Shown one piece after another: positions 17,798 through 28,639 of a stretch of DNA of 57,791 bases (positions within the stretch are counted from its first letter, which is position 1; each line of letters opens with the position of its first letter). Origin of the DNA: Gemmatimonadota bacterium (GTDB lineage: Bacteria > Gemmatimonadota > Gemmatimonadetes > Gemmatimonadales > GWC2-71-9); assembly GCA_016209985.1 (NCBI GenBank), contig JACQVB010000126.1:1-57791 (forward strand). The letters are read 5' to 3'. Position numbers and translations under genes: made by a program. The notes beneath the pieces are model-generated. The model was given only the letters and a program-made list of their open reading frames with translations, searched no databases and was not told the DNA's origin.

Positions 17798-17870
17798 GAG
17801 GTGTCAGGTGCCAGGTTCCAGGTGCCGGGGGAAAAGCCTGGCACCTGATACCTGACACCTGACACCTGAG
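17798..17870. repeat. Mirrored heptamer repeat (AGGTGTC / GACACCT)
   Basis: GAGGTGTCAGGTGCCAGGTTCCAGGTGCC...GGCACCTGATACCTGACACCTGACACCTGA. Confidence 0.85.
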
Positions 17871-19073: not shown

Positions 19074-19179
19074 CTCAGGTGTGTTAGGTGCCAGGTGCTA
19101 GGTGTCAGGTTTCAGGTGTCAGGTGTCAGGGTCTTAGCCTGCCACTCCCTGGCACCTGACACCTGACACCTGGCACCCC
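19074..19179. repeat. Mirrored heptamer repeat (AGGTGTC / GACACCT)
   Basis: TCAGGTGTGTTAGGTGCCAGGTGCTAGGTGTCAGGTTTCAGGTGTCAGGTGTCAGG ... CTGGCACCTGACACCTGACACCTGGCACC. Confidence 0.85.
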
Positions 19180-20713: not shown

Positions 20714-20785
20714 GAGGTGCCAGGTGCCAGGTGCCAGGTCTTGCAACCCTGACACCTGACACCTGACACCTGACACCTGACACCT
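20714..20785. repeat. Mirrored heptamer repeat (AGGTGCC / GACACCT)
   Basis: GAGGTGCCAGGTGCCAGGTGCCAGG ... CCCTGACACCTGACACCTGACACCTGACACCTGACACCT. Confidence 0.88.
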
Positions 20786-22732: not shown

Positions 22733-22779
22733 GAGGGAAAGAAAGAAGGGGAAGAGGGAAGAGGGAAGAGGGAATCGGT

Positions 22780-26201: not shown

Positions 26202-26591
26202 CTACGCGGCTGCCAGAGCCGCAGGTGCGGGGCCGGCATCTACCAAGCGCTTGTGCACCGGGTCGATCGTGAGATTCAAGCCCTCGAGCGAACGGGACCC
26301 CAGCAGAATCATGTCCCCTGGTTGAGCGAAAACGACGTCGTCGAAGGTCCGCGTCCCGGCCAGATAGAGCCGGACCTCTCCGGTCCAGCGCTCGCGCACC
26401 GATCCGTCGGCCAGGCGGAAGCGCAGTTGCTTCACTCGGTCCACGCCGAGTGATTCCAGCAGTTCGGCGGGGACCCACGACAGCTCGGCGCCCGTGTCTA
26501 TCAGCACCGAGCACAGCACCCGTCTCTCGCCCGGGCGTAGCGGGTTCTCGATCTCGACATCTACGCGGAAGCTTCCCATTTCGTCGGTCAT
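26202..26591 (-). CDS. Retropepsin-like aspartic protease domain protein
   Basis: CSVLIDTGAELSWVPAELLESLGV (DTG motif); DMILLGSRSLEGLNLTIDP. Confidence 0.8.
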   Translation of the reverse strand: MTDEMGSFRVDVEIENPLRPGERRVLCSVLIDTGAELSWVPAELLESLGVDRVKQLRFRLADGSVRERWTGEVRLYLAGTRTFDDVVFAQPGDMILLGSRSLEGLNLTIDPVHKRLVDAGPAPAALAAA

Positions 26592-26744
26592 GTTAACTCC
26601 CGAAGATGGGGCGAGTAGTATCGTACGGCAGCGGCTGACGCCGCGCCGTAATAGAACACCGCCGCATGGCCGACTGGTCGGTTCGAGGACGCCGGCGCCG
26701 GTTCCGTGACCAGCAAGGTCCGCATGCACGTTTCAAACGGCGGT

Positions 26745-26965
26745 TTTGAAGCTTCGAATGGCCAGTTCGAAGCTTCGAACGACCGTTTCGAAGGATCAAG
26801 ACGACGTTTCAAAGCTTCAAAATGCTCGATCGAAGGTTGGAAATCGCATTTCTGAGCTTCGATGGCCCCTTTCGATCCTTCGAAATGCCATTTCCAACCT
26901 TCGAAACGTCCGTTTGAAGCTTCAAAACCATGTTTCGAAGCTTCGAAACGACTGATCGAAACGGA
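26745..26965. repeat. Array 1: 11 tandem 21-bp units with palindromic core TTCGAAGCTTCGAA
   Basis: Core GAA (or variant) recurs at 26748, 26769, 26790, 26811, 26832, 26853, 26874, 26895, 26916, 26937, 26958, an exact 21-bp step each time. Confidence 0.93.
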
Positions 26966-27363
26966 GGGCCTCCCAGCGTAACTGCACCACGCTCAATCGA
27001 AGGTTCGAAACGACTGATCGAAATGGAGGCCCTTCCGGGCGTAACTGCATCTGCAGGATCGCGTTACACCGTTAGGTATCGGAAAATACCTTCTCGAACC
27101 GAAGCCGGCGAACGCCGGTCGCGGCAAGCGATCTCGCGGCTCATCGACGAGGAAAGATCGGCGCTTGGCTAAGTCCGCCGGGCGAAAAGTGTCCAATTAG
27201 ACACTGGTTGGGATTGCCCCGGTTTCGTGGACAATGGAGCGGCTTAATCACGCCGGCCGGAGCCTGGTTCGGCTGGTGCCAACCCCGGATTACCCATGGC
27301 TCCATGCTGCAATTGGTGGCAGCCGCGAGTGCCGGTGTCATTCTAGGAAGTGTTTTTCGGTGA

Positions 27364-27573
27364 GGGGTACTTATCCGAAGGCATGGGACAACCATCTCAA
27401 GGCTTGGGACAACTGTCCGAGTGCGTGGGACAATGGTCTCACGCCTTGCGACAGTTGTCTCCGAACGAAAACGTGGTGTCTTTTGGTGCAAGCAAATGGT
27501 TTCTTGCCCAAAGACAATTGTCTGAGGCCGTGGGACAACCATCCCACGCCTCGGGACAGTATAGCCGGTCCCC
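27364..27573. repeat. Array 2: about 10 tandem 21-bp units with palindromic core GGGACAATTGTCCC
   Basis: Unit starts at 27385, 27406, 27427, 27448, 27469, 27490, 27511, 27532, 27553 (exact 21-bp step), plus a degenerate unit at 27364. Confidence 0.93.
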
Positions 27574-27739
27574 TCGCTCGCCTTCCCCCACTTCCCGATG
27601 ACTTGCGGGCGCATTGGGCCAGTCAGCCGAACAACCATCGTCATCACTCCCTAGCCCTGGACACTGTCCAAGGAAACTGGGTGCTCTATACCGGCCATGT
27701 CTAATTAGACTTTGAACCGGGAACCGGAAAAGCGGGAAA

Positions 27740-28639
27740 TCATTCTTCGTTCGCTGCGCGCTTCCGCCGCTTCAGCTCATCATAGAGAGTTTTGCGGCTC
27801 ACGTGGAGCTCTCGGGCAGTGGCCGCCCTGTTGCCGCCGTTCTTCGCCAGAACTTGGTCCAGCCTCTCGCGCCAGTCGGCCTCCGGGCTGGCCGCCCCCA
27901 GCGGCAGCGGCAGCTCTTCGAAGATCACGAAGTGCTGAAGGACCTTCTCCAACTCGCGCACGTTGCCGGGCCAGTCGTACGAGTGCAACGCCTTCAGTTC
28001 GAGGGTTTCCAGGGACCGGACCGAGGCTCCCGACTCCCTGGTCAATCTTTCCAGCGGGTAGTCAATGAGCTCCGGAAGATCATCACGGTGGTCGCGGAGA
28101 GGGGGCATCCGCACCGGAAGGTCTCCTAATCGGTAGAGCAGGTCGCGCCGAAAGGTCCCCGCGAGCACCGCCTCCTTCAGATTCGCGTTCGTGGCGAACA
28201 CCAGCCGCACGTCGACCAGGCGGGGACGCTGTTCACCGATCCGGCGCACCTGCTTCCCTTCGATCAGGGTCAGCAGCGCTTCCTGCACGGTCGGCGAGGC
28301 GGTGGCGATCTCGTCTACAAACAGCGTCCCACCATGGGCCTGCTCGAACTTGCCCATGTAGTCGAACTCAGCCCCGGTAAACGCGCCCTTGCGGTAGCCG
28401 AGCAGCTCACCGATAGCCAGCGTATCGACCAGCAGGTTTACCGCGCAGGCCACGAAGGGACCGTGAGCACGCGGCGACATGACGTGCAGCACGCGGGCCG
28501 CCAGGCCCTTGCCGGTGCCGCTGGCTCCTTCGATGCGTACTGGCCAGGGGAATTGCGCGAGCCGGGCGAGCGCCGCGCGCACCTTGCGCATGACTGCGGA
28601 GGAACCAATGAGTGGAGTCCGGTCCAGGTATTCGACCAT
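27740..28639 (-). CDS. Sigma-54-dependent transcriptional activator (AAA+ plus Fis-type HTH, no receiver)
   Basis: GASGTGKG Walker A, GAFTGA loop, GTLFVDEI Walker B, WPGNVRELEKV, C-terminal NGGNRAATARELHVSRKTLYDELKR. Confidence 0.93.
   Translation of the reverse strand: MVEYLDRTPLIGSSAVMRKVRAALARLAQFPWPVRIEGASGTGKGLAARVLHVMSPRAHGPFVACAVNLLVDTLAIGELLGYRKGAFTGAEFDYMGKFEQAHGGTLFVDEIATASPTVQEALLTLIEGKQVRRIGEQRPRLVDVRLVFATNANLKEAVLAGTFRRDLLYRLGDLPVRMPPLRDHRDDLPELIDYPLERLTRESGASVRSLETLELKALHSYDWPGNVRELEKVLQHFVIFEELPLPLGAASPEADWRERLDQVLAKNGGNRAATARELHVSRKTLYDELKRRKRAANEE

Follow-up and report, generated by a model that had tools for sequence, protein, structure and literature searches.

The question raised by this locus is whether a run of short palindromes repeating every 21 bp acts as DNA, as RNA or as a coding sequence. 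The run lies in a stretch of 57,791 nucleotides from a Gemmatimonadota bacterium (contig JACQVB010000126.1), analysed whole and referred to here as the window. A preliminary description of the sequence had left a protein-binding array, a cryptic coiled-coil peptide and a structural RNA side by side. The features discussed are collected in Table 1.

Table 1. Coordinates of the arrays and their surroundings in the window.
Feature	Position	Strand	Remarks
Retropepsin-like aspartyl protease gene	26202..26591	-	context; multi-copy in the family, most copies without an array
Array A	26731..26960	.	11 units of 21 bp; dyad about TTTCGAAGCTTCGAAA plus 5-7 bp variable spacer
69-aa open frame through array A	26746..26955	+	TTG start; judged not a gene
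Second copy of array A right end plus flank	26997..27049	.	offset 62, out of phase by 1; families D3, D4
Dispersed element bearing array B	27268..27631	.	inverted-pair ends TTCGGCTG / CAGCCGAA
Array B	27366..27560	.	21-bp units, dyad about TGGGACAATTGTCCCA
Sigma-54 activator with Fis-type HTH	27740..28639	-	context; no regular linkage to arrays

A weight-matrix scan placed all ten intervals among the 11 units of array A at exactly 21 bp, bearing out the earlier claim of an 11-unit array without phase slippage. The units had also been called exact, which holds for their phase but not for their sequence: GAAGCTTC is intact in four units (26748, 26769, 26916 and 26937) and the eleventh (26958) is half a dyad only. 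The genome assembly holds just two copies of the full 14-mer TTCGAAGCTTCGAA, at 26766 and 26934. Identity at lag 21 is 0.62 in the array, against at most 0.41 in 3000 Markov-1 simulated sequences matched in composition. When the whole window was scanned, the peaks at lags 21 and 42 fell on array A (z about 7); an unbiased palindrome-array scan of the window (periods 14-42) found only 21 and its multiple 42, and array A is also reported by Tandem Repeats Finder. Unit-to-unit likeness is 14.7 of 28 in inverted and 14.5 of 28 in direct orientation. An inverted copy of unit 26895 makes up part of unit 26832 (15 bp exact), and the 40-nt right end of the array (26935-26974) is repeated at 26997-27036 with 90% identity. 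A search for phage or plasmid relatives gave no match; the viral collection yielded one contig.

Further arrays were sought by searching for pairs of GAAGCTTC cores at a distance of 21 bp, with up to one mismatch. Multi-unit arrays were found in several genera of the source family, while a reversed control pattern gave at most 3 matches per genome. A three-unit pattern run across GTDB genomes returned 34 stretches, among them some in Gemmatimonadota MAGs (including the relatives G007, G017 and G021), Sandaracinaceae, Spirochaetales, Bacteroidetes and a cyanobacterium; some of these look like alanine-rich coding repeats. The genome search for 21-bp-period palindromic arrays proposed in the preliminary description thus finds more of them in this genome, in the Gemmatimonadota family and in other phyla. 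Four or more kinds of unit occur in this genome (those of arrays A, B, L091 and L150/L156), the density of arrays in it being judged from samples.

The three-unit search presupposed a 21-bp period; in later searches the spacing was freed (13-42 bp). By hand count, 34 of 36 core pairs in 103 family genomes then lay 21 or 42 bp apart, and in eight genomes reached via the GTDB matches all of the pairs listed, at least about 75, were spaced by 20, 21, 22 or 42 bp (also a hand count). One genome (G346) has repeated 20-bp spacings and another (G341) runs of 22. The CAAGCTTG pattern recurs solely at 21 or 42 bp in this genome and at scattered spacings elsewhere in the phylum. Across 33 arrays, 299 intervals equal 21 bp; the near-misses comprise 18 cases of 20, 22, 19, 40 or 43 bp and one of 18. 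The spacing is that of two helical turns and not of seven codons: left free, it is almost exclusively 20, 21, 22 or 42 bp. In a Bacteroidaceae MAG, unbiased scanning also revealed a palindromic array of 22-bp period (ATTTTAACAGCTGTTGAAATTG) beside a 21-bp match (L038, about 138-300).

Symmetry was assessed by comparing the best dyad score of each of 23 arrays with column permutations. It was significant (p<0.05) in 19 of the 23, and in 12 of the 15 that had been found without GAAGCTTC (Fisher 3e-16). Symmetry was not significant in the 21-bp arrays sampled from a Bacteroidetes MAG, nor in most of those from Sandaracinaceae SSF7, some of which are coding-like. In array A the dyad core is better conserved than the spacer, by 0.81 bit per column (p=0.002), and conservation is mirror-symmetric (p=0.022). 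L091 and L105B behave in the same way; most other arrays are non-significant singly, and the whole set combined gives p values of 1e-4 and 8e-4. Around the symmetric consensus, variation in one arm of a unit is independent of that in the other. Indels in related arrays are mostly of +/-1 and hence frame-breaking. In G021 the ratio of indels to substitutions is 1:20 in arrays and about 1:18 in flanks (small numbers), so that no depletion of indels is seen there and this genome gives no support for selection on spacing inside arrays. Orthologous arrays may simply have inherited their period, and the apparent case for selection on spacing comes from the recurrence of one period in arrays unrelated to each other.

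One array of this genome (L091) sits between two genes, X and Y, downstream of an Amidase_2 gene. Gene X encodes 225 aa with a coiled-coil look and a C-terminal hydrophobic stretch, and has no Pfam match; gene Y carries an fn3 domain. Matches to gene X number 11, from four genomes that each belong to a different genus, and a 21-bp array follows it in 10 of the 11 copies; the eleventh contig stops 83 bp past the gene. The palindromes in this spacer include TTTTCAAGCTTGAAAA, GCCGAACGTTCGGC, ATGCGGATTCGCAT, TTCGAAACGRCGTTTCGA, ATGTCAATTGACAT and TTGTCCRTGGACA: the sequence has been replaced, the period and the symmetry kept. The spacer is a natural experiment for finding the predicted binding protein. 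The surrounding cluster, in the order Amidase_2, gene X, array, gene Y and gene Z, is multi-copy in several Gemmatimonadota genomes and has a phage-like look (L091 2246-5584 on contig G000:C10; related loci L147-L156).

Array B shares its 21-bp period with array A but has a different dyad. It lies inside a MITE-like element of 364 bp whose ends are short and inverted; a second copy of this element, 92% identical and with sharp boundaries, is found on another contig of this genome (G000:C43, L266 2842-3214). Array B is also bracketed by an inverted pair, GTCCAATTAGACA / TGTCTAATTAGAC, at 27191-27203 and 27698-27710; each member is nearly palindromic, and the pair looks like a putative operator pair close to a sigma-54 activator gene.

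The analysis shows exact phase, dyad symmetry, independently varying half-sites and a conserved core with a decaying spacer; arrays recur between genes in relatives, and whole arrays are dispersed. The reading that we favour, with a probability of roughly one half, is that array A is a non-coding array that would function at the DNA level as a series of sites for dimers, all on the same helical face. Each dyad would bind a homodimeric DNA-binding protein, successive dimers would bind cooperatively along one side of the helix, and the array might then act as a local nucleoprotein patch with a role in regulation, in insulation, or as a scaffold for the nucleoid or for segregation. From locus to locus the palindromes change, whereas spacing and symmetry persist. 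Among the three options first proposed, protein binding on a helical face is the best supported, by two-turn spacing even where the period is 20 or 22 bp, by the independence of the halves and by conservation of the core over the spacer; independent halves and a conserved core are both predicted by a dimer site. Against it, palindromes are locus-specific, which means that one sequence-specific protein cannot read all of them; no regulator was found consistently adjoining the arrays; and the asymmetric arrays of the Bacteroidetes MAG and SSF7, like the indel ratio in G021, which is no lower than in the flanks, also weigh on that side.

The main rival is that the arrays are a selfish or neutral satellite, the palindromes promoting replication slippage in two-turn steps and serving no host function; arrays would expand, travel inside MITE-like elements and decay. 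We regard this as quite possible, though less probable than binding sites. The residence of array B in a dispersed element fits such a history, as do the G021 arrays, which lie on dispersed copies with flanks in common, and the inverted copy within array A, which points to template switching or conversion. The like indel ratios of arrays and flanks in G021 are in its favour too, and plain decay is also compatible with the absence of covariation described below. A palindromic satellite under plain decay predicts independent halves but not a conserved core, however, and the mirror-symmetric conservation of the core against a decaying spacer argues for the dimer-site reading. The retention of arrays at a single spacer across four genera, and an identical period in unrelated sequences and phyla, also speak against a satellite.

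A role as RNA, with the array transcribed and the hairpins functioning in the transcript, seems improbable. The fold predicted in silico is strong (z -9.1 on the + strand and -7.9 on the - strand), and in Bacillus coagulans there is transcription of 52-nt repeats that belong to the same general class (PMC8161180, PMC8625621). Folding on both strands follows from symmetry alone, however, as any palindromic array would fold in this way. Selected hairpins should show co-varying arms and, on the transcribed strand, G.U more often than A.C. Within units, paired cells number 272 against 271.6 expected, and 391 against 384 in the gene X-Y spacer arrays, where gene direction is known; there is thus no compensation within units in either set. 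Nor is G.U in excess over A.C, the G.T:A.C counts being 39:31 and, for the gene X-Y spacer arrays, 60:52. An Rfam search gave no match, and a structured RNA would leave the two-turn period without a reason. The structural-RNA option is not supported by covariation within units or by G.U asymmetry, despite the strong folding of both strands.

A coiled-coil gene, in which the 69-aa frame encodes a heptad-repeat peptide, is very improbable indeed: the frame is open across ten units with hydrophobic a/d positions, but openness is expected of a core palindrome without a stop codon in any frame, GC1/2/3 is 0.53/0.39/0.47 where GC3 is 0.72-0.89 in four real genes nearby, Pfam gives no match, off-intervals other than 18 exceed 18 by 18 to 1, related arrays carry frame-breaking indels, and units of 20 or 22 bp are incompatible with heptads.

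The neighbouring genes gave no recurrent partner. By Pfam, the neighbours in the window are the aspartyl protease, two sigma-54 activators and CstA, and no replication or partition gene was seen among them. A single genome can hold as many as 9 copies of the aspartyl protease gene, with 63-73% identity across the family and mostly differing surroundings; among the loci examined from other genomes, clear non-coding 21-bp arrays were found only at L179. No linkage to the sigma-54 activator was seen at loci of two relatives. Four-helix-bundle genes (IVP, PF05635) are present in 7 of 7 genomes searched but array-adjacent only in G007:C41. An integron integrase or XRE-type gene was also considered as a partner; these lie beside one array (L013) and did not recur. 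At that locus (G017:C6; 414-1391 and about 1899-2120) the array is flanked by the integron integrase gene (TIGR02249) and by a small HTH gene of the XRE type, the latter called by eye, and is followed by a two-unit stretch resembling array B. Tandem repeats of 7 bp (CCTGACA, GTGTCAG, AGGTGCC, GAGGGAA) also lie between genes of the window, at 17837-17869, 19081-19130, 20715-20785 and 22733-22774, and form a separate repeat class.

Several known systems invite comparison. Plasmid iterons and par centromere repeats are sites of about two helical turns, set in phase so that the bound proteins share one face, and this in-phase two-turn geometry is common to the arrays described here. They differ in that our arrays are chromosomal, occur at many loci per genome and have a locus-specific palindrome; since no replication or partition gene was found beside array A in the window, we have not filed it as an iteron or centromere. 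REP/BIME elements and MITEs are dispersed, non-coding palindromic repeats between genes. The array B element, with its short inverted ends and second copy, resembles them; they are, however, single hairpins or small clusters, in contrast to the long in-phase two-turn arrays seen here.

The closest match is a class described by Subirana and Messeguer, non-coding bacterial tandem repeats with a constant length of 20-21 nt and a variable, species-specific sequence, found in many phyla with several families per genome and with no known function; that 21 nt equals two helical turns was remarked upon there (PMC8161180). Array A belongs to this published class of constant-length (20-22 bp), variable-sequence repeats. 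Like its members it is non-coding and constant in length (ten of ten intervals), it has 11 units where at least four are called for, and this genome holds several unrelated families of variable sequence; array A is far more diverged than a young satellite. The preliminary description recognised no named element of this form, which was too strong given these published repeats, yet the palindromes are indeed not described there. Dyad symmetry, a conserved core, a 22-bp version and swapped palindromes at a conserved spacer are all absent from that account, which is silent on palindromes and symmetry, and we found no report of dyad symmetry in such repeats in the literature on palindromic or phased repeats. 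A wider proposal, which we hold to be rather doubtful, is that the 20-22 bp bacterial repeats as a whole are two-turn phased arrays of dimer sites for a fast-diversifying DNA-binding family, each locus having its own palindrome, and so a chromosomal analogue of centromeres or iterons. Constant-length, variable-sequence non-coding repeats have posed a puzzle since 2020 or earlier, and the dyads, independent half-sites and 20-, 21- and 22-bp versions seen here make the two-turn remark testable, in the form that a symmetric protein reads the DNA from one face.
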